A stretch of 64,000 nt of DNA from Sulfurimonas hydrogeniphila (GTDB lineage: Bacteria; Campylobacterota; Campylobacteria; Campylobacterales; Sulfurimonadaceae). The notes under the pieces were generated by a model, which did not search any database, was not told where the DNA came from, and worked only from the letters and a program-made list of their open reading frames with translations. A program made the translations under genes and the position numbers. Of this stretch, positions 13,129 to 22,476 are shown in pieces; within the stretch, counting starts at the first letter, position 1, and each line of letters begins with the position of its first letter. The stretch is from NCBI RefSeq assembly GCF_009068765.1, contig NZ_CP035534.1:124001-188000 (forward strand). Reading direction: 5' to 3'.

Positions 13129-13198
13129 TCTCTTTCCTTTTTTTTAGTAGAATTTTACACTATAATAGTTGCAATTGATTAATAAAGAGGGTTTTGGA

Positions 13199-13708
13199 AT
13201 GAAATATAAAAACAAATCATTAAAACTTGCCGAGTTTGCAAGGGAGTTGTTGACAAAACATTCTCTTGAAGATGGTCTGCCTCTGATTGCAAAATATGTC
13301 AAAGATGTCATAGGTGCCGAGCGGTGTTCTATATTTATATATGATGCTGCTGCAAATGAGGTGTGGACAACCCTGGCGGATGAAGTTAAAAAAATAACAC
13401 TTCGTGCAGATAAAGGGTTGGTGGGGTATACACTCAAGGCAAAGAAACCTGTTGTAGCAAATGATGCCTATGCCCATCCGGAGTTTTTGCCCGAAATTGA
13501 TTCGGCGACAGATTATATTACAAAAAATATCATAACAGCACCAATATTCAGTTCCAAAAGAGAGATTATCGGGGTGATGGAACTTTTAAACAAAGAAGAA
13601 GGATTTGATGAAGAAGATGTCCGTTTTATGATATTTTTTGCACATTATGTCAGCGGATTTTTAGAACTGCTGCATACGTATTTAGATCAAGAAAAGAGAG
13701 TGGATTAA
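13199..13708 (+). CDS. GAF-domain protein (first of a tandem pair)
   Basis: A 169-residue protein that is almost entirely one GAF domain: ERCSIFIYDAAANEVWTTLA, GLVGYTLKAKKPVVANDAY, and NIITAPIFSSKREIIGVMELLNK. There is no output domain, so it would bind a ligand and act on a partner. The ATG at 13199 is preceded by GAGGG; the -10 TATAAT is at 13160-13165. The neighbour at 13710 is a paralogue separated by 1 bp. A regulatory role is inferred, the target is unknown. Confidence 0.8.
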   Translation: MKYKNKSLKLAEFARELLTKHSLEDGLPLIAKYVKDVIGAERCSIFIYDAAANEVWTTLADEVKKITLRADKGLVGYTLKAKKPVVANDAYAHPEFLPEIDSATDYITKNIITAPIFSSKREIIGVMELLNKEEGFDEEDVRFMIFFAHYVSGFLELLHTYLDQEKRVD

Positions 13709-13709
13709 T

Positions 13710-14204
13710 ATGAAACAATTAAAGAGAATTGCCGAATTCGGTAAAAAACTGATGACAACCAATGCGATTGATGATGCAATTGTTTTGATAAGTGATGAGG
13801 CAAAATCTCTTGCAGAGGCACAAAGATGTTCTATATTTATTGTGGACAGTGATGATGAGATACTCTGGACGACACACAGTGACGGAATGGGAAAAATCGT
13901 TGTCAGTGCGGATGCGGGGATAGTTGGCGCCACATATAAAAGCAAGACACCGCAGATAGTGAACAAACCTTATGAAGACGAGCGGTTTTTACAGCACATA
14001 GATAAAAAAAGCGGCTATCTGACCGAAAACATGCTGACAGTTCCTGTATTTGATTCAAAGAGAAATGTAATGGGCGTGATGCAGCTGCTTAACAAAGAAA
14101 CAGACTTTACCCCGCAGGATCTGGAGACACTCACTTTTTTTGCCAATTATGTAAGTGGAAGCCTGGAACTTGTACTGATAACACAGATACAAGGCGGGGA
14201 ATAA
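13710..14204 (+). CDS. GAF-domain protein (second of a tandem pair)
   Basis: A 164-residue single-GAF-domain protein, clearly paralogous to the preceding gene (shared RCSIFI-D, DAGIVGATYKSKTPQIVNKPY, NMLTVPVFDSKRNVMGVMQLLNKE, and FFANYVSGSLEL). The pair looks like a local duplication that has diverged considerably, and the two may form a heterodimer. It is followed by a hairpin terminator that starts inside its last codons. Confidence 0.8.
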   Translation: MKQLKRIAEFGKKLMTTNAIDDAIVLISDEAKSLAEAQRCSIFIVDSDDEILWTTHSDGMGKIVVSADAGIVGATYKSKTPQIVNKPYEDERFLQHIDKKSGYLTENMLTVPVFDSKRNVMGVMQLLNKETDFTPQDLETLTFFANYVSGSLELVLITQIQGGE

Positions 14205-14471: not shown

Positions 14472-15452
14472 TTATTTAGTTTTTAGTAAAGTGTGAGCAT
14501 CATAGGCTAATCGAATGACGCCGACGGCATAGTTTGAGGAGTTGTTGTAACGCATAATTTTTTGTACATATTTTCTCATATACTGCAGGTGCTTTTTGCC
14601 TTTGCTGAAACATTGGTATGCTTTGCCGCTTTTGCTGCTTTTTTCATAGCAAAACGATGCATTGTCGTATTTGTAGGCATAGGCGTACCACTCTTGTTCT
14701 GTTTTTGGAATATCAGGCATTTTTTTCCAGTCAATGAGTGTGTCAAATTTTGCCTTTACATGTAAGAACTTCGCAGCAGAGAGGATGGCGTCTTCCATTT
14801 TACTCAAGTCTGCGACTTTGCCTTTGTAGCTGTCCGTGTAGATAAAACTGTTTGGCATAAACTGCGGGATGCCTATGGCACCGGCGTAGGAGCTTGCTAG
14901 ATTACACTGTTGGGGTTTGACACCTTTTTTGTAGCAGTGTTCTATAATCGAAGCCATATTTGTTTTGCCCATTTTTAAGAGCCACTTGTTTCGGTGGGTA
15001 TCGGGTTTTGTGCGTGTTACGATAGTGTTGAAAACAATGAAGGCATCATGTGTCGGTTTTATTTTGCCGAGTTTTGTCTCTTTGAGCAAAATGGCGGCAA
15101 TGATTTCACGGTTGACATGATATTTATTTTCGGCATAGTCGTAAACATCTTTGTATTTTTGAAGATTTTTTACCATTTTTGGAACATATTTTATCAGTAC
15201 ATTGTTTGCCTGTTTCTCTTTTTCTTTATGGTATTTTATTTTTGAAGGCTGTATGTATTTCCAGGTTATTTCATCATACTTTTGTGTTTTAAAATAGGAG
15301 AGTAGAAATTGGTTGGCATATTTGTAACTGACGCCGTGTTTGACGACTTTTTTGCAAATATCTTCATAATGTCTGTTTGTAAAATTGCAGTTGTCATATT
15401 TTGCAAAAAGTACACTGCCAAGGAGCAGTAAAAATATAAATTTAGTTTTCAT
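14472..15452 (-). CDS. lytic murein transglycosylase (MltB/SLT_2 family)
   Basis: A 326-residue exported enzyme with a signal peptide (residues 1-17, ending LFA). The catalytic Glu is in AAILLKETKLGK and the sugar-binding segment is SSYAGAIGIPQFMPNSF, both typical of MltB-type transglycosylases. These cut the MurNAc-GlcNAc bond and leave 1,6-anhydro-MurNAc ends, the substrates of the recycling genes upstream. It overlaps murU by 11 bp and closes the peptidoglycan recycling operon. There is no lipobox, so it is soluble in the periplasm rather than a lipoprotein. Confidence 0.87.
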   Translation of the reverse strand: MKTKFIFLLLLGSVLFAKYDNCNFTNRHYEDICKKVVKHGVSYKYANQFLLSYFKTQKYDEITWKYIQPSKIKYHKEKEKQANNVLIKYVPKMVKNLQKYKDVYDYAENKYHVNREIIAAILLKETKLGKIKPTHDAFIVFNTIVTRTKPDTHRNKWLLKMGKTNMASIIEHCYKKGVKPQQCNLASSYAGAIGIPQFMPNSFIYTDSYKGKVADLSKMEDAILSAAKFLHVKAKFDTLIDWKKMPDIPKTEQEWYAYAYKYDNASFCYEKSSKSGKAYQCFSKGKKHLQYMRKYVQKIMRYNNSSNYAVGVIRLAYDAHTLLKTK

Positions 15453-16101
15453 TGATTTCTTGAAGCCTTTGTGGTGTGCCTATATCATGCCACATTTTGT
15501 TAAATACTTCGCCACTGACAAGATTTTTGTCGATATTTTTTCTCAAAAGCGGAGCGAGCGGGCTTTTTTGTAACGCTTCGTTTTCAAAGAGTTTTGGATG
15601 GTAGTAGCCTATGCCGGAAAAGGTGTACATTGTTTTGTCTTTATTTGTTACAAGTCCATTTTTGAGTCCAAAGTCTCCTGTTGGATTGTGTACAGGATTG
15701 GGTACCAAAACAAGATGGGCAAACACGTCGATGAGTTTGAAATTCGGATTGAATTCATATTCGCAAAATATATCGCCGTTGACAACCAAAAAAGGAGCAT
15801 CTCCTAAAAGTGGCAGTGCTTTTTTGATACCGCCGGCACTCTCGAGGGCTCCGCTGTTTTGCTCATTCGAGTAGTGAATTCTGACATGCCACCGTGAGCC
15901 GTCTCCGAGAGACTCCTGGATTTTATGGCCAAGATGGGCAATATTGATAACGATCTCCTCAAAACCGTTTTGAGCCAGCTTTTCAATATGCCACTCTATC
16001 AGCGCCTTTCCCTTTACATGTAACAAGGGCTTTGGCAGAGTATCGCTCAAAGGACGTATGCGCTCACCCCGACCTGCCGCAAGTATCATCGCTTTCATCA
16101 T
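15442..16101 (-). CDS. murU: N-acetylmuramate alpha-1-phosphate uridylyltransferase MurU
   Basis: A nucleotidyltransferase of about 219 residues with the signature MILAAGRGERIRPLSDTLPKPLL, then NGDIFCEY (metal-binding Asp) and GDFGLK. Adjacency to amgK and anmK supports MurU, which makes UDP-MurNAc from MurNAc-1-phosphate and bypasses de novo synthesis. The start is set by AAGGAG 5 bp before the tandem ATGATG at 16101-16096; the longer frame to 16155 runs into a repeat element and is rejected. A related sugar nucleotidyltransferase role (for example in cell-surface glycans) cannot be fully excluded. Confidence 0.87.
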   Translation of the reverse strand: MMKAMILAAGRGERIRPLSDTLPKPLLHVKGKALIEWHIEKLAQNGFEEIVINIAHLGHKIQESLGDGSRWHVRIHYSNEQNSGALESAGGIKKALPLLGDAPFLVVNGDIFCEYEFNPNFKLIDVFAHLVLVPNPVHNPTGDFGLKNGLVTNKDKTMYTFSGIGYYHPKLFENEALQKSPLAPLLRKNIDKNLVSGEVFNKMWHDIGTPQRLQEINEN

Positions 16102-16142
16102 ATGCTCTCCTTTTTTTATGGGTTTTAACCTGGCTATTCGTC

Positions 16143-16412
16143 TTGAAAGACACAAAGCCCGCGCTACAGAAAAAAATTTAGTTTTTTTCTAAGTCATGCT
16201 TTAGCATAGAAAGTACGGGTTCCGGGAAAATCATTTAACTTAATGGAACCCAGACTTCAGTCTGGGCTGAGTTGCTGTCAAAGTACAAGGCGAAGCTAAA
16301 GCATCGCTTCCGAAGAGTTTAGCACATGTTCTTTGAAACCTAGACTTCAGTTTCAATGACATTAAGTTAAGCGGCTTTTTCGGAACCCAGACTTCAGTCT
16401 GGGCTGAGTTGC
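16143..16412. repeat. REP-like repeat, copy A (murU-amgK gap)
   Basis: The first 81 bp (16143-16223) match 18487-18566 at about 76 positions. A 31-bp unit beginning GGAACCCAGACTTCAGTCTG occurs twice as a direct repeat, at 16245-16275 and 16382-16412, with a decayed third copy near 16335. Each unit folds as CCCAGACT-TC-AGTCTGGG. The stretch CGGCTTTTTCGGAACCC (16372-16388) is shared exactly with copy B. The right end runs into amgK and supplies its last codons (LSPD-stop). Confidence 0.8.
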
Positions 16413-17338
16413 CGTAAAAGTTTCCCAAACTCTTTGGTCTCCTCATATCGTAAAGCCGTTTCAATCACATAACGCAGTGTCAGCGGAATATTTTTTACAT
16501 ATCCCTCTTTGCCGTCACGCAAATGCAGACGCGAAAAAATCCCCAACACCTTTATATGCCGCTGCAGCCCCATAAAATCAAACCACTTTAAAAACTCTTC
16601 ATTGCTTACATGTAAACCCTTTTTACGGGCAAACAAAAGTGCCAGCGCCTCGATCTCTTTGCGCTCAAAAGAGATATAACAGTCTTTTAAAAGCGAAACC
16701 AGATCATAGGTGAGTGCCCCGCTCATGGCATCCTGATAATCAATTATACCGAGTTCATTTTTGCTTGTGAACATAATATTTCGCGAGTGAAAATCACGAT
16801 GTACAAAAATGTTTTGCGGCTGAGACAGTACAACACCGGATATCGCCTCAAGGGTAGAAGATATCAGCCTCTTTTGTTCTTTGTTTACATGTAAAGCAAG
16901 CTTTTTCTCCAAATACCACTCTTGCATTAAATCCATCTCTGTATGGAGAAATTTTTTGTCATACAGCGGCAGGTTTTTCGTATCGGCACTTTGCATTTGT
17001 ATTATTGCATCAATGGCTTTTTCATACAGGCTTTTAAAGTTTTCACGCTTGAGTACATCCAGCAGTTGCGTATCACCGAAATCTTCTAAAATAAGATATC
17101 CAAGAGAGAGATTTTTTGCAAGAATTTTTGGTGCTTTGACCTTTACATGTAAGAGTCTTGAAGTGATGTTTACAAAGGGTGACAAAGAGTGTTTTTCCAA
17201 AGAGGCATCCAGCAAAATAACAGAATGATTTTTATATGAAAGCCGATAATATTTTCTAAAACTTGCATCGGCAGAGGCAATATGTATGTCATAATCTTTA
17301 TAGGGAGTGGTTTGCAACCATGCTTTAATCTGCTGCAT
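16394..17338 (-). CDS. amgK: N-acetylmuramate/N-acetylglucosamine kinase AmgK
   Basis: A 314-residue aminoglycoside-phosphotransferase-fold kinase: FRKYYRL near the start, EDFGD, the catalytic loop VHRDFHSRNIM and metal-binding IIDYQDA. Together with murU and anmK next to it, this identifies AmgK, which phosphorylates MurNAc at the anomeric position in the cytoplasm. It overlaps the 3' end of anmK by 14 bp. Its C-terminal residues are encoded by the REP-like repeat, so its natural stop may have been replaced when the repeat arrived. It contains three copies of TTACATGTAA. Confidence 0.9.
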   Translation of the reverse strand: MQQIKAWLQTTPYKDYDIHIASADASFRKYYRLSYKNHSVILLDASLEKHSLSPFVNITSRLLHVKVKAPKILAKNLSLGYLILEDFGDTQLLDVLKRENFKSLYEKAIDAIIQMQSADTKNLPLYDKKFLHTEMDLMQEWYLEKKLALHVNKEQKRLISSTLEAISGVVLSQPQNIFVHRDFHSRNIMFTSKNELGIIDYQDAMSGALTYDLVSLLKDCYISFERKEIEALALLFARKKGLHVSNEEFLKWFDFMGLQRHIKVLGIFSRLHLRDGKEGYVKNIPLTLRYVIETALRYEETKEFGKLLRQLSPD

Positions 17339-18419
17339 AAATAGCTCCTGCTACGGAATCTTTTTGGGCACCGGTAACTTTGGCGAGGGCAAGCGGCTCT
17401 TTGTGCAGGCGTTTCTTTGCAAACCAGGCAAATGCCATGGCTTCTAAAAAATCACTGCTGATCCCGAGGGCATCGCTTGCAATTACTTTGGCGTGGCACA
17501 GTGTGCTGAGTCTTTGCATCAAAAAGCTGTTTTTTACGCCGCCGCCGCAAATTATGAGCTGTGTAGCCTGTGTGGCATTGACGTCATTGGCAATGGAGCG
17601 GGCGGTAAGTTCGAGCAGGGTTTTTTGTATCTGTGCATCGGATAAATGTGCAAAATTTTGCAGTTGTTGTTCAAGCCATGCGGCATTAAAATACTCTCTG
17701 CCCGTACTTTTTGGCGGTTTTTGCCTGAAATAGTCATCGTCAAGCATTGTTTTGAGCAGTTCTTCATCTGCTTCGCCGCTTTTTGCAAATGCTCCCTCTG
17801 CATCATAATTTTTCTGTTGAGTTTTTTGCATCCACACATCCATCAAAACATTCCCGCAGCCGACATCCCAACCGCCAAAAGTATCAAAAAGCAAAGAGAT
17901 ATTTGCCATCCCTCCGATGTTTAGCACCGCTCTGTTTTCTTGTGTATCTGCAAATAAAAATTGATGAAAAGCAGGAGCAAAAGGCGCTCCCTGACCGCCG
18001 TTGGCTATGTCTTTGCCTCTAAAATCAGCTACAGTCGTGATGCCTGTCTTGGCTGCAACGATGTTTGCGTTGCCTAGCTGCATGGAAAAAGGATACAAAG
18101 AATCAGGTTCGTGCCAAAGTGTCTGTCCGTGCAGACCGACGGCAACTATACTCTTTAGATGTAAAGCATTGCTTTTTATAAAATCATTGATACTCTCTGC
18201 AAAAAGAAGCCCGAGTCTGCTGTCACATTCTCCGATTTGTTTTAAAGTGGCAGAATTGGCTGCAAGTTTGAGAACTTCTTCTTTTAATTCGTCTGGAAAA
18301 GGATACTCCTGTGCCGCAAGGAGTTTGCAGTTTGCAGTATCTATTTCACACAGAGCAATGTCAATGCCGTCAAGACTTGTCCCGCTCATAACACCGATGT
18401 AGAGTTCTTTTTTTATCAT
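17325..18419 (-). CDS. anmK: anhydro-N-acetylmuramic acid kinase
   Basis: A 364-residue sugar kinase of the AnmK family: start ELYIGVMSGTSLDGIDIALCEI, GLHGQTLWHEP, DFRGKDIANGGQGAPFAPAFH and NIGGMANISLL are its hallmark segments, and the length is typical. It opens the anhydro ring and makes MurNAc-6-phosphate. AmgK needs MurNAc without that phosphate, so a phosphatase (MupP in Pseudomonas) is expected; none is in this cluster. The REP-like copy B lies upstream, separating anmK from the symporter gene by 305 bp. Confidence 0.95.
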   Translation of the reverse strand: MIKKELYIGVMSGTSLDGIDIALCEIDTANCKLLAAQEYPFPDELKEEVLKLAANSATLKQIGECDSRLGLLFAESINDFIKSNALHLKSIVAVGLHGQTLWHEPDSLYPFSMQLGNANIVAAKTGITTVADFRGKDIANGGQGAPFAPAFHQFLFADTQENRAVLNIGGMANISLLFDTFGGWDVGCGNVLMDVWMQKTQQKNYDAEGAFAKSGEADEELLKTMLDDDYFRQKPPKSTGREYFNAAWLEQQLQNFAHLSDAQIQKTLLELTARSIANDVNATQATQLIICGGGVKNSFLMQRLSTLCHAKVIASDALGISSDFLEAMAFAWFAKKRLHKEPLALAKVTGAQKDSVAGAIYAAD

Positions 18420-18486
18420 GTTTTTCCTGTTTCTTTTGATTATTATATCTATTTAGTAATAATTTTTTGTAACCTGGGCTCTAGTT

Positions 18487-18698
18487 TTGAAAGACACAAA
18501 GCCCGCACTACAGAAAAAATTTAGTTTTTTTCCAAGTCATGCTTTAGCATAGAAAGTATGTGTTCCAAAAAAAGCAAAAGAAACGAAAAAAAAGTTTCAA
18601 TACCATTAGGCTCTCAACGGCTTTTTCGGAACCCGTACTTCAGTGCGGGCTCAAAGTGTTAAAGTGCTGGCAACAGCCGGCACTGAAGTACCGGTTCC
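18487..18698. repeat. REP-like repeat, copy B (anmK-symporter gap)
   Basis: It occupies most of the 305-bp space between the symporter gene and anmK (18420-18724); nothing else was seen there. The left part matches copy A for about 80 bp. The right part holds hairpins CCCGTACT-TC-AGTGCGGG (near 18632) and, inverted, its cousin CCGGCACT-GA-AGTACCGG (near 18677). Compared with copy A the stem bases differ in pairs while the central ACTTCAGT is fixed, so the hairpin itself appears to be conserved. Confidence 0.8.
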
Positions 18699-18724
18699 AA
18701 GACGATACCAAGCTTTTGCTTAAG

Positions 18725-20239
18725 CTAATGGTTTATCCTTTTAGTTTGGGCTGTACTGCTTGCGAGAGTTGTATGCGAAGTATCTGTCTGCATAATCACA
18801 AAAGCAACCAAGGTTCCTAAAATCATCTGCCAGGCAAATCCTATATGAATGCTAAATACATAGGGCTGTAAGGCTAATACACTCACAAAGCCTCCGACAA
18901 GGGCAAAAGGAACGGTCGCGGCACTTCCTCTTGTTGTAAAAACCGCCGAGAAAAAGACGCCTAAAAGTCCGGTGTAGGCAAAGGTCATTACCCCCAGGGC
19001 AAAACTGACAAGGGAGAGTTCACTTTCTCTTTGCCAAAAATAACTCACAATTGCCATAAAAAAGAGAATAAATGCAAAGATAAGTACGGCATTTCGGGAA
19101 GCTTTTAAAAAATGTATTTCTTTCGTATGGGGATCTTTTTGCAATTTCCACGGTCGGTACAAATCTTCAACGGCGACAGAAGCCATGGCACCCAAAACAG
19201 AGTTTGTGCTTGAAAGTGCTGCGGCAATGGCACCGACTGTTACAAGCCCTCTCAGTCCTGAGGGCATTTCATTGAGGATGTAATACATAAAAACGGTAAT
19301 GCTCTCGCCTTGAAAATTCTGACTTACCGTATCCGTCTGGTAATGTACAAAAAGCAGTGCTCCGATGCCAAGAAAAAGCATGACAATGGGAATAGTCAAA
19401 ACAATGGAGAGAATGAGTGACTGCGCAGCTTCGTTTTTGTTTTTACAGCTGAGTACGCGCTGGGTCATGTCCTGATCAAGTCCGAAAGCGGCTATGTTTA
19501 AAAGCAGCCAACCGCTAAAAAGTGCCATCATACTGAACTTCCCATCAAGTGAATTATCTATTACATGTAACTTGTTATGTGCTTGCAGGATTGCTAAAAT
19601 ATCTATATTGTGCAAAGAGAGATACAAATACCAAAAAACTAAAAGACCGGCACCGACATAGGTAAGGGCTTGAATGATATCACTGAAGATGATGGACTTG
19701 ATACCGCCGAAGTAAGTGTAGGATAAAGCGCCTGCAATTAAAAGAGTGATGGCAACAAGCATATGAAAAAAGCCGATATCCAAAAAAAGTATCATACTCA
19801 CAGCCAGTGCGCCGATGTAGAGCCGTGCCCCGCTCGCCATAATGCGTCCAAGCAAAAACATGATGCCTGCCTGCTTTTTGGCACGTTCGCCGTAGCGTGT
19901 TTGTAAAAGTTCATAGACGGTGACAACTTTGTATTTGTAAAATTTCGGGACAAAAACAAGGCTGATAAATACAACAGCCACCAGCGCAGAAAAATAAAAC
20001 CCCAAAAAGGTAAAATCATGGACATAGGAAAATTCCGGAACACCCAAAAAAGTTGCAGCAGATTGAGAAGTAGCGATGATTGAGACGGCAACAGCGAACA
20101 TTGGCATAGTATTTGAGCTGACAAAATAGTCTCTTGAGGAACTGATTTTGAATTGGGAAAAGAGGTAGGAACTGATGGCGAGCACCAGAAAATAAGCACC
20201 AAAAACAAACCAGTCAAGAGAAGAAAACCCGCTACTCAT
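18725..20239 (-). CDS. sodium:solute symporter family transporter
   Basis: About 504 residues with 13-14 hydrophobic helices. The SSS-family pattern is visible: SSSRDYFVSSNTMP near the N-terminus, AATSQSAATFLGVPEFSY-like unwound first helix, and SSTNSVLGAMASVAVEDLY late in the protein. The ATG at 20239 overlaps the stop of the nagZ-ampD gene (ATGAGTAG), so the two are translationally coupled. From the context I infer import of a muropeptide sugar such as anhydro-MurNAc or GlcNAc, in place of AmpG. That substrate is not shown by the sequence. Confidence 0.85.
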   Translation of the reverse strand: MSSGFSSLDWFVFGAYFLVLAISSYLFSQFKISSSRDYFVSSNTMPMFAVAVSIIATSQSAATFLGVPEFSYVHDFTFLGFYFSALVAVVFISLVFVPKFYKYKVVTVYELLQTRYGERAKKQAGIMFLLGRIMASGARLYIGALAVSMILFLDIGFFHMLVAITLLIAGALSYTYFGGIKSIIFSDIIQALTYVGAGLLVFWYLYLSLHNIDILAILQAHNKLHVIDNSLDGKFSMMALFSGWLLLNIAAFGLDQDMTQRVLSCKNKNEAAQSLILSIVLTIPIVMLFLGIGALLFVHYQTDTVSQNFQGESITVFMYYILNEMPSGLRGLVTVGAIAAALSSTNSVLGAMASVAVEDLYRPWKLQKDPHTKEIHFLKASRNAVLIFAFILFFMAIVSYFWQRESELSLVSFALGVMTFAYTGLLGVFFSAVFTTRGSAATVPFALVGGFVSVLALQPYVFSIHIGFAWQMILGTLVAFVIMQTDTSHTTLASSTAQTKRINH

Positions 20240-21914
20240 CGGCACCTCTGAGATGCAGGTCTGGCACACCTGCTCTTACTTCCTGCATAAAAAGTACCCC
20301 GGGATCTGCTTTTTGGGTTCTGTACCCTGCATCATGTTCCAGCCAGAGGGGATTGTTTTGCATTTTTGTGTATTCGTAATGCCCGATGAGGTAGGCAATG
20401 TCAGGATATTGTTGTTTGAGATATTTTACAAGGGCAATGTTTGCACGTACCTGCGCATCTGTTAAATCCTCTTTTTTGTTTGCCTCACCGCCGACGTTTT
20501 CTATGCCGATACTTGAGTAGTTGAGTCCGATGACATGGCGTGCCATAACATCATCTGGCATCAGCTGGTAAATTGTTCCGTCTCGGTCCACCAAATAGTG
20601 TGCCGAGACATTCAATGCCGAGGCGTTTGCTATATCTTTTCTGTCAGAGAGCAGTTTTTGCGGATCAAGTCTGGCAAAACTTTTGTTTGCATCCATCACG
20701 GCAGTCCAGTGCAGAACAATTATTTTTGGCTTTATTTTTATCTCCTTTACATGTAAGCCGTAATGTTTTTGAATATATGCCCGCGTTAATGCTTTACGCT
20801 CTTTTTCAAATATGACAGGCTTTTGTACAAGTCTGTTTTTGAAATGCAGATTTGTGATTCGTGCATTGGATGCTATAATTTTGCTGAGCGGAATCTTTTT
20901 ATTTTTGACCTGCTTGAAAATAGTCTCAACTATCTCTTGCGTCGAATTGTGTGCAAGCTGATTGCCAAAGAGTAAAATATTCACCCCTGCATTGATTGCC
21001 AGAGTCAGGGCATCTTTGAGTGAATAATTTGCAGAGATAGCCTTCATCTGCATATCATCACTGATGATGACGCCCTGAAAGTGCAATCTGTTGCGTAAAA
21101 GTTCTGTATTTATTTTATAAGAGAGTGTTGCCGGATATTTGTCATCCAAATGTGCATTAAAGACATGTGCAGTCATAATTGCATCAGCCTTATGGGCTTT
21201 GATGAGGATTTTATAAGGCTCCAGTTCTTTTTTGCTCCAGGTATTTGTGATGTCGACAAACCCTTTATGGGAATCTCCGAGTGAGGAACCGTGCCCGGGA
21301 AAATGTTTTAAAACAGAAAGGACATTGTGGCGTGTCTGGGCGTCTATCATTGTCTGTGCATATTTTGCAACCTCTTTGGGATTGCTTCCGTAAGAACGCT
21401 CTAAGCCTACTATGACTTTGTTGTCTGGGTTGGTGCTTAAATCGAGTACGGGGGCAAAATTTACATTAATACCGCTGTTTTGGAGCATTTGAGCCTGAGC
21501 CTTGTAAATTTGCTGTGCTCTTTGTAAAGGCATACATGAAACGGCAGCAGCAGAGGGGATTTTGACAAAGCCGTATTGTGGTTTGAGCCTGCTGACCTTG
21601 CCGCCTTCCTGGTCGACGGCTATAAAAAGTGGTTTGTGTGCAAAATATTGTAAATGCCAGGTAAGTTTTTTCAGCTGATAGGGTGAGAGGATGTTTTTAA
21701 CTCTTTGTTTGTCTGTATAAAACCGGTCAAAGAGAATCACACCGCCCAAATCATACTTTTGTATATCTGAAACTATTTGGGACGTCGGTTCTACATAACT
21801 TTCATCAAAGCCGACAATCAGCATGCGCCCTATCATTTTTTTGAGTTGCGTATCTGTAGGCACTGTGGCATGAAGCGTTATGTAGAGACTTAAAAAAAGT
21901 AAAAAGATGCGCAT
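20232..21914 (-). CDS. exported NagZ-AmpD fusion: beta-N-acetylhexosaminidase plus muramoyl-alanine amidase
   Basis: A 560-residue two-enzyme protein. After a short signal peptide (about residues 1-16, ending LHA) comes a GH3/NagZ domain (about 20-370) with VDQEGGKVSRL, the NagZ loop KHFPGHGSSLGDSH (catalytic His/Asp dyad) and the nucleophile region VIISDDMQMKAI. It is followed by an Amidase_2/AmpD domain (about 395-550) with a Zn-ligand His in IIVLHWTA, His in LIGHYEY and Asp in QKADPG. NagZ and AmpD are normally separate cytoplasmic proteins in Gram-negative bacteria. Here both steps, removal of GlcNAc and of the peptide, would occur in the periplasm on one chain. The start is the first ATG. 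Confidence 0.88.
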   Translation of the reverse strand: MRIFLLFLSLYITLHATVPTDTQLKKMIGRMLIVGFDESYVEPTSQIVSDIQKYDLGGVILFDRFYTDKQRVKNILSPYQLKKLTWHLQYFAHKPLFIAVDQEGGKVSRLKPQYGFVKIPSAAAVSCMPLQRAQQIYKAQAQMLQNSGINVNFAPVLDLSTNPDNKVIVGLERSYGSNPKEVAKYAQTMIDAQTRHNVLSVLKHFPGHGSSLGDSHKGFVDITNTWSKKELEPYKILIKAHKADAIMTAHVFNAHLDDKYPATLSYKINTELLRNRLHFQGVIISDDMQMKAISANYSLKDALTLAINAGVNILLFGNQLAHNSTQEIVETIFKQVKNKKIPLSKIIASNARITNLHFKNRLVQKPVIFEKERKALTRAYIQKHYGLHVKEIKIKPKIIVLHWTAVMDANKSFARLDPQKLLSDRKDIANASALNVSAHYLVDRDGTIYQLMPDDVMARHVIGLNYSSIGIENVGGEANKKEDLTDAQVRANIALVKYLKQQYPDIAYLIGHYEYTKMQNNPLWLEHDAGYRTQKADPGVLFMQEVRAGVPDLHLRGADE

Positions 21915-21930
21915 TATAAGTAATCCTGAT

Positions 21931-22476
21931 TTAGATATGCTTTTGCAATACTCTATTTATATCATGAATAACATTAAACAAAAGTGATTTTGTATTTTCT
22001 TTTGTAATGGTGTGTGGTGCAAAATGGTCACTGACGACCTTTAAAATATGAAATTTTTCAATGGCAGGATTATGAACAACCGCCTCATAAAAACCAAAAC
22101 TTTCCATATCAACGGGTGTTTCGTGTTGTATTGCGGCTGCTTCGTCTTTACATGTAAGCGTATGTTTGTCAGCGCAAAAGGGATAAACGGTATTGTGATA
22201 GACTACAGTACCTATTTCTAAAAGTTCTCCGATTTTATGCTGCTTTGGTGCACCGCAGATACCGACATTGAGATAAATGTCTTCTTTTGTAATGTCAAAA
22301 TTGTCAATCAGCGTCTGCGTCGCAAGTCTGGCATTGTCAACCCCGATACCGCTGATAATGAGTCTGATATCTGTGTTTGTAAAAAGTGTATAGTTTTGCA
22401 GTTTGTTTTTTTTGAGTCTGTATTTGTCAACGAAGGCCTGAGCTTCAGGTTTGAGAGCGGTTACTATGTAGAGCAT
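21931..22476 (-). CDS. phosphorylase-superfamily nucleosidase (MTA/SAH nucleosidase-like)
   Basis: A 181-residue protein of the purine nucleoside phosphorylase/MTAN fold: it starts MLYIVTALKPEAQAFVDKY, has ISGIGVDNARLAT and NVGICGAP, and the substrate-binding segment VDMESFGFYEA, comparable to VDMEGAAIAQ of MTA/SAH nucleosidases. It is shorter than Mtn (about 230 residues), so the exact substrate is open. It precedes the nagZ-ampD fusion by 16 bp on the same strand and may be the first gene of that operon. Confidence 0.72.
   Translation of the reverse strand: MLYIVTALKPEAQAFVDKYRLKKNKLQNYTLFTNTDIRLIISGIGVDNARLATQTLIDNFDITKEDIYLNVGICGAPKQHKIGELLEIGTVVYHNTVYPFCADKHTLTCKDEAAAIQHETPVDMESFGFYEAVVHNPAIEKFHILKVVSDHFAPHTITKENTKSLLFNVIHDINRVLQKHI

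Follow-up and report, generated by a model that had tools for sequence, protein, structure and literature searches.

A putatively exported NagZ-AmpD fusion and an overlapping sodium symporter gene suggest an AmpG-independent route of peptidoglycan-sugar recycling in Sulfurimonas hydrogeniphila

In a 64,000-nucleotide stretch of the Sulfurimonas hydrogeniphila genome (hereafter the window; bases 124001-188000 of a single contig of 2,342,011 bases, completeness 100), a minus-strand gene cluster encodes a fusion of a NagZ-type glucosaminidase with an AmpD-type amidase, a sodium:solute symporter, the enzymes AnmK, MurU and probably AmgK, and an MltB-type lytic transglycosylase. In Gram-negative bacteria, recycling is taught as the import of muropeptides by AmpG, followed by cutting inside the cell. 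For this cluster we propose, at a probability of roughly three in four, an AmpG-independent recycling of peptidoglycan sugars, with trimming in the periplasm, import of the freed sugar by the symporter, and its processing in the cytoplasm by AnmK, AmgK and MurU. Cutting outside combined with free-sugar import is a better reading here than the AmpG scheme; both an overlap of their genes and a shared distribution over genomes connect the importer with the cutting enzymes. An earlier sequence-only reading of the cluster had arrived at the same overall interpretation, which our analysis supports and in which we still infer the pathway and the solute of the symporter.

Proposed pathway

From the observed gene content, order and conservation, the exclusivity with AmpG-profile matches and the character of the N-termini, we infer activities, locations and solute as follows. 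Judging by their families, the MltB-type enzyme and other lytic transglycosylases would release N-acetylglucosamine (GlcNAc)-anhydroMurNAc-peptides (MurNAc, N-acetylmuramic acid) into the periplasm. There the fusion, whose export is predicted from N-termini and whose activities are suggested by its families and conserved catalytic residues, would remove the peptide with its Amidase_2 half and GlcNAc with its GH3 half, leaving free anhydro-MurNAc, GlcNAc and peptide. The symporter would then bring in anhydro-MurNAc, possibly also GlcNAc, together with sodium, as gene linkage, co-occurrence and family suggest. In the cytoplasm, AnmK would open the anhydro ring and phosphorylate the sugar, a putative phosphatase would take off the 6-phosphate between AnmK and AmgK, and AmgK and MurU would lead to UDP-MurNAc, the three named enzymes acting as expected of their families. 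The fusion, together with the coupling to the symporter, may place supply and uptake under one control.

Probable trimming outside the cytoplasm

The fusion consists of a signal-like N-terminus (about residues 1-16), a GH3 domain (residues 27-356, E 1.4e-63) and an Amidase_2 domain (residues 395-539, E 3.7e-22). The GH3 motif KHFPGHGSS..DSH and SDD are invariant in 24/24 aligned fusions, and so are the amidase columns H402, E472, H512, K535 and D537; from AmpD numbering, we take H402, H512 and D537 to be the zinc ligands and K535 and E472 to be catalytic. Structure prediction, which the sequence-only reading had called for, yielded a model with a predicted local distance difference test (pLDDT) of 82.5 and a predicted template modelling score of 0.84. 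Its GH3 part (residues 19-361), the only part covered by structure matches, fits NagZ-type structures at Z 41-43, matching glucosaminidases of Paenibacillus (Z 42.7) and Bacillus subtilis (Z 41.2). The complete chromosome holds one GH3 and one Amidase_2 domain in total, both within the fusion, so that no member of these families is left for trimming in the cytoplasm. Separate cytoplasmic NagZ and AmpD proteins, which had been named as evidence that would speak against the pathway, were thus not found in the complete genome.

As a measure of export we used N-terminal hydropathy, taking the best mean over 10 residues within 32 residues and a threshold of 2.0. For each protein, every start as far as 50 codons upstream was considered and the one scoring best was chosen; cytoplasmic enzymes of the same loci were treated alike as controls. 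Rows were left out of the count if the match began after query residue 60 or if the reading frame extended past the end of the locus, and duplicate rows were removed; some genomes enter the count via two collections. A signal-like N-terminus was found on this measure in 56/56 NagZ or fusion proteins, 20/21 stand-alone AmpDs (the remaining one scoring 1.93) and 17/17 MltB proteins, against 0/42 for AnmK, 0/43 for AmgK and 1/36 for MurU. When the start nearest to the expected one was taken instead, the counts were 25/25 for fusions, 32/33 for NagZ, 15/21 for AmpD and 17/17 for MltB, with 0/45, 0/44 and 0/40 for AnmK, AmgK and MurU. The N-terminal letters of NagZ, AmpD and the fusion differ between relatives while the hydrophobic character stays, which is the pattern expected of signal peptides, and two stand-alone AmpDs (L051 and L052) carry lipobox-like LSGC and LTAC. 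Moreover, in genomes with split enzymes the stand-alone amidase itself begins with a signal-like stretch, which argues for an outside location of the amidase domain in the fusion too.

Exported trimming, as first suggested for the fusion, is thus predicted by hydropathy for nearly all its NagZ and AmpD relatives as well, and both trimming steps are very probably periplasmic. The fusion could instead be cytoplasmic or anchored at the inner face, if its N-terminus were no signal peptide or its start were mis-set; hydropathy being the sole basis of the export call leaves some room for this, but the consistency of the N-termini across relatives and the lipobox-like motifs of the two AmpDs make it scarcely probable.

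In the AmpD tree, 26 fusions form one clade (support 97/81), while the two fusions from the sister genus fall apart from it. The AmpD tree requires 2 changes and the NagZ tree 4, well-supported branches forcing just 1 in each, and the trees are compatible with a single origin of the fusion as well as with several.

The symporter and its partners

Co-occurrence was examined in 298 Campylobacterota genomes. With residues 4-504 of the symporter as the query, 43 genomes matched, 26 of them strongly (at least 549 bits) and the other 17 with no more than 158.4 bits. AnmK is present in 27/298 genomes, and all 26 strong-symporter genomes are among these 27 (Fisher p 1.6e-36, computed without regard to kinship, although the genomes come from just two families, f1 and f4). 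The symporter lies directly downstream of a full fusion in 10 of the 26, directly behind a stand-alone NagZ in 6, with AmpD elsewhere in all 6, and directly behind a stand-alone AmpD in 9, with NagZ elsewhere in 8. Since its neighbour is one half or the other, according to which lies close by, the symporter is linked to the pathway and not to a single gene. AnmK follows on the same strand, 4-8024 bp downstream of the symporter, in 24/26 genomes, and lies on a different contig in 2.

Relatives with both fusion domains were found in 19 named loci (L063-L081, 61-82% identity), titled Sulfurimonas in 17 cases and Epsilonproteobacteria/Helicobacteraceae in 2. In all 19, the gene next after the fusion is the symporter (in two pieces in L069), and AnmK is present in 18, the contig ending in L065. 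The fusion-symporter pair, whose conservation had been proposed earlier as a check, is thus conserved, in 19/19 named loci and in 10 of the 26 symporter genomes. AmgK usually adjoins AnmK in relatives (exceptions L074, L081 and L082). As the arrangement recurs across genera, it is more than chance. A genome of the Sulfurimonas group, G254, holds the nucleosidase, NagZ and MltB side by side, the symporter and AnmK being absent from the genome and AmgK and MurU from the 14-kb stretch examined (L228), which looks like loss as a block.

The overlap between fusion and symporter noticed by the sequence-only reading is present: the fusion stop TAG and the symporter ATG share 8 bases, ATGAGTAG, which sets the symporter as the 504-aa frame of Table 1 and not as a 514-aa GTG frame. 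An 8-base fusion/symporter overlap is likewise seen in the relatives L004, L005 and L006, and the two genes are likely translationally coupled, to judge from this arrangement.

Gene linkage, co-occurrence and family make anhydro-MurNAc the very probable cargo of the symporter, perhaps along with GlcNAc. Members of the solute:sodium symporter (SSS) family carry very varied solutes, and the substrate named here is a proposal from family and context, so that a symporter for peptide, amino acids or an unrelated solute, placed in the operon by chance, has to be considered. In 25/26 genomes of two families, however, the symporter gene is linked to NagZ, to AmpD or to the fusion, with a partner differing by clade, which renders such a chance highly improbable, as does the lack of both symporter and AnmK in G254, where NagZ and MltB remain. 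Another possibility is that the enzymes are exported as proposed, with GlcNAc, or GlcNAc and the other amino sugar alike, as the main cargo of the symporter and with another carrier as the main entry for anhydro-MurNAc. The AmgK family by name acts on both sugars, symporters of about 30% identity beside Asparaginase_2 and in some cases GH92 genes suggest GlcNAc (see below), and the carboxylate-binding arginine of the sialic-acid symporter SiaT is not retained. Within Campylobacterota, however, all but one of the 27 AnmK genomes hold the symporter, and AnmK acts on anhydro-MurNAc, whereas many genomes with NagZ matches, which would yield GlcNAc too, lack the symporter; we therefore regard a mainly GlcNAc-directed carrier as unlikely and anhydro-MurNAc as the probable solute.

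SiaT (5nv9) is the closest solved relative of the symporter (E 1.7e-37). The symporter model (pLDDT 86.2) compares with it at Z 43.2-43.8 and a root-mean-square deviation of 2.6-2.7 over 462-465 residues with 24% identity, Z being about 5 above the next family members. When the SiaT sites (PMC5931594) were carried onto the symporter rows by eye from the pairwise alignment, the equivalents of Ala56, Ser60, Thr63 and Asp182 proved to be kept in 43/43 rows. In the Campylobacterota rows, the Ser342 equivalent is Ser in 27/30 and Thr in 3/30, and that of Ser343 is Ser in 30/30; the Na2-site residues are largely kept. The modelled fold fits a sodium symporter akin to one for an acidic N-acetyl sugar, with a specificity pocket of its own. 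In G288 (L223, 8928-9245), a further fragment of a symporter gene (106 aa, 62%) separates AnmK from the complete symporter gene and is perhaps a duplication remnant.

AmpG, the phosphatase step and contrary evidence

Across the complete 2.34-Mb source genome, no AmpG was matched at E 0.001, in agreement with its absence from the cluster, in a search that did not extend to YejBEF. Weak AmpG-profile matches occur in 33/298 Campylobacterota genomes, none of them among the 27 AnmK genomes, and in 14 control genomes the profile matches 5, E. coli and Caulobacter included, 2 of these over the cut-off. The search for an etherase was likewise negative, the best MurQ score in the source genome being 25.1 bits (cut-off 302).

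The phosphatase MupP, expected between AnmK and AmgK, is indeed missing from the cluster. Of the 7 HAD_2 matches in the genome, the two best Gph-like ones were followed; against the MupP model, whose cut-off is 359, they reach 100.4 and 67.6 bits. Both were rejected as a recycling-specific MupP: the HAD at C1:968040 matches in 265/298 genomes, with close relatives in AnmK-less family members (G254 64%, G289 65%, G010 61%), and that at C1:235400 matches in 47/47 genomes tried, among them AnmK-less ones that hold a close relative (G015 71%, G027 68%, G289 68%), its relatives in some other genomes being weak. Either of these could still perform the MurNAc-6-phosphate phosphatase step. A scan of frames of at least 150 aa for the N-terminal motif gave no HAD gene in loci L003-L087 and L155-L182.

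Several observations weigh against the proposed route. The AmpG profile reaches its cut-off in 0/298 genomes, which leaves the phylum without a positive control and the sensitivity of the profile there unproven. No recycling-specific HAD phosphatase was found elsewhere in the genome among the two candidates followed, and the AmgK score (Table 1) is under the model cut-off of 550, although gene context agrees with the call. One genome, G284 (a 240-contig assembly), has AnmK and no symporter match, no NagZ was found in G219, where the symporter lies behind AmpD, and the symporter is unlinked in G234 (1/26). A match to a fusion domain occurs in 125/298 genomes compared with 27 for AnmK, meaning that NagZ export by itself is no sign of recycling. 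As for the symporter, in the Campylobacterota rows the place of the carboxylate-binding Arg135 of SiaT is taken by Ala (30/30), that of Gln82 by Tyr or Phe, and that of Ser345 of the Na3 site by Asn in 25/30. Two other arginines close to this place (132 and 139) are invariant, and a part for them in solute binding is conjecture.

Intact muropeptides could also enter by a carrier outside the scope of our search, such as YejBEF or a major facilitator superfamily (MFS) protein, with the fusion acting only as an autolysin or scavenger on exogenous or septal wall. A precedent exists in Agrobacterium, where YejBEF-YepA stands in for AmpG, but YepA is reported to be exclusive to Alphaproteobacteria (PMC9790009). 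With no second GH3 or Amidase_2 for cytoplasmic trimming, and with the linkage to AnmK-AmgK-MurU, muropeptide import is improbable here, and the import of free sugar after periplasmic trimming remains our preferred reading.

Cluster layout and neighbouring features

On the minus strand, the reading order is nucleosidase-like frame, fusion, symporter, AnmK, AmgK, MurU and MltB-type transglycosylase (Table 1). All reading frames of the sequence-only reading were recovered at their positions, and its domain calls were borne out by profiles, with the reservation that the NCBIfam models for AmgK, MltB and NagZ score under their cut-offs: the fusion reaches 180.9 bits to the NagZ model NF003740, just under 207, and the transglycosylase 67.8 bits to its best model TIGR02282, under 281.4.

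Table 1. Positions, in the window, of the cluster genes and associated features.
Feature	Position	Strand	Details
MltB-type lytic transglycosylase, signal-like N-terminus	14472..15452	-	SLT_2 E 5.5e-31
MurU, MurNAc-1-phosphate uridylyltransferase	15442..16098	-	NCBIfam NF045761 298.8 bits, cut-off 250
Probable AmgK, MurNAc/GlcNAc kinase	16394..17338	-	best match NCBIfam NF045759, 256.6 bits
AnmK	17325..18419	-	Pfam 445.7 bits, E 1.7e-133; NCBIfam NF007139 467 bits, cut-off 367
Inverted repeat in symporter-AnmK spacer	18628..18698	.	24-nt arms, 92% complementary
Sodium:solute symporter (SSF), proposed anhydro-MurNAc importer	18725..20239	-	504 aa; Pfam SSF E 7.8e-28
ATGAGTAG overlap, fusion stop/symporter start	20232..20239	-	read from sequence
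NagZ (GH3)-AmpD-type (Amidase_2) fusion	20232..21914	-	560 aa; Pfam Glyco_hydro_3 + Amidase_2
Short nucleosidase-like protein	21931..22476	-	181 aa; NCBIfam MTA/SAH nucleosidase, weak, below cut-offs; synteny

AmgK and AnmK overlap by 14 bases, and the start of MurU is most likely the ATG at 16098 rather than the TTG at 16155. The symporter-AnmK spacer of 305 bp, with its inverted repeat, and the AmgK-MurU gap of 295 bp mean that a single transcript for the cluster is not certain. The arm motif of the repeat recurs at a distant site of the source genome (L210, about position 2346) and may be of the repetitive extragenic palindromic (REP) kind. The nucleosidase-like protein is found directly upstream of the fusion or of NagZ in many Sulfurimonas loci, and is also kept (42%) in G254, a genome without symporter and AnmK. 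At 13169-14204 of the window, convergent with the cluster, lie two adjacent similar-looking proteins, the second being a GAF-domain protein (Pfam).

Relatives outside Campylobacterota

The wider symporter search was centred on G298 (the genome of L120, titled Saprospiraceae), whose phylum we take to be Bacteroidota. There, the same symporter query matches 365/395 genomes, with 26-33% identity among the matches listed, and at such a frequency the relatives are SSS members in general. Among the 30 best symporter loci of this phylum, AnmK lies within 1.5 kb in 3, and no NagZ or AmpD relative was found at E 0.01; the module as such is not shown there. In L263-L265, a symporter of about 30% identity and an adjacent AnmK are oriented divergently, and the vicinity also encodes a beta-lactamase-family (PF00144) protein, a neighbour that echoes the NagZ-beta-lactamase fusion of Rhodothermus. 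Other symporters of about 30% identity are near Asparaginase_2 (L267, L270 and L271), presumably of the aspartylglucosaminidase type, and GH92 (L267 and L268), and these four loci are possible units for salvage of N-glycan GlcNAc.

The nearest GH3 relatives outside Campylobacterota were found in 55 loci (L088-L142, 41-52% identity), largely of Legionella and Chlorobi, and could possibly reflect old gene transfer. No symporter or AmpD relative over 45 bits was present in their available flanks, which vary in length; in L113, AmgK and MurU are about 3 kb from the GH3 relative.

Discussion

With moderate confidence, we incline to a wider view. In two Campylobacterota families, the place of AmpG and of trimming in the cytoplasm would be taken by exported NagZ and AmpD, whether fused or separate, and by a new family of importers that use sodium to bring in anhydro-MurNAc. 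Related symporters, encoded beside AnmK and a protein of the beta-lactamase family, would have the same part in some of the Bacteroidota, and this would answer how Gram-negatives lacking AmpG feed AnmK. Such a route predicts that few intact muropeptides reach the cytoplasm. It would also be predicted to bypass the fosfomycin target, like the route of Pseudomonas (PMC5371407).

A literature search, which missed most subscription papers, met no report of the module in Campylobacterota, no match for Sulfurimonas together with peptidoglycan recycling, and no NagZ-AmpD fusion tied to a symporter and AnmK. According to a review, AmpG is more sporadic in epsilonproteobacteria (PMC11382707). Parts of the scheme are already in print, namely a proposed periplasmic NagZ without AmpG in Rhodothermus and a sodium-symporter importer of MurNAc in Tannerella; new, to judge from this search, are the NagZ-AmpD fusion, the module of NagZ/AmpD, symporter and AnmK, and the exclusivity of this module with AmpG matches.

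With the AmpG-NagZ-AmpD-AnmK-MurQ system of E. coli, the cluster shares the lytic transglycosylase products, NagZ, the AmpD-type amidase and AnmK. It differs in that its genome has no AmpG match and no MurQ above the cut-off, in that NagZ and the amidase are fused behind a signal-like N-terminus, and in that a sugar, not a muropeptide, would cross the membrane. The anabolic route of Pseudomonas is fed by AmpG. This AnmK-MupP-AmgK-MurU route (PMC5371407) has AnmK, MurU and probably AmgK in common with the cluster, where they lie together, whereas its MupP has no counterpart recognised here. In B. subtilis, NagZ and AmiE are exported and the importer is MurP of the phosphotransferase system (PTS) (PMC6987092, PMC6403190). 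The likeness lies in a glucosaminidase and an amidase acting outside before sugar uptake, as predicted here, and the B. subtilis NagZ is among the nearest GH3 structures; in contrast, S. hydrogeniphila is Gram-negative and has one fused protein, a sodium symporter in place of the PTS, and AnmK-AmgK-MurU with no MurQ above the cut-off.

The sodium-symporter superfamily has a precedent in MurT, the MurNAc importer of Tannerella forsythia, which lies in an operon with MurNAc-salvage genes (PMC5790795, PMC7670621). Here MurT is likened by description, not by sequence, and Tannerella is reported to retain AmpG, to work through MurK-MurQ and to lack a predicted AnmK. In a Urechidicola mussel symbiont, a locus for cell-wall sugars includes a sodium co-transporter gene (nis) alongside ampD and GH3, and also has ampG, murQ, nagB and SusCD pairs; no AnmK or NagZ-AmpD fusion is named in the passages on it (PMC10199937). 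With SiaT (PMC5931594), the symporter has in common the LeuT-type fold, most Na2-site residues and the Ser60/Thr63 equivalents, but identity is 24%, and Arg135, Gln82 and mostly Ser345 are not kept.

A further parallel is offered by Rhodothermus marinus, whose RmNag3 is proposed to be a periplasmic NagZ with a signal peptide, fused to a beta-lactamase domain; in that work, AmpG and intracellular NagZ and AmpD are absent, AnmK is present, MurP and NagE orthologs are lacking, and the importer is unnamed (PMC6987092). A NagZ with a predicted signal, AnmK, and the lack of AmpG and of separate intracellular NagZ and AmpD are shared with S. hydrogeniphila, while the NagZ-AmpD fusion and the importer candidate distinguish it. 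An importer of the type proposed here could be what fills the gap at the import step in Rhodothermus (PMC6987092).

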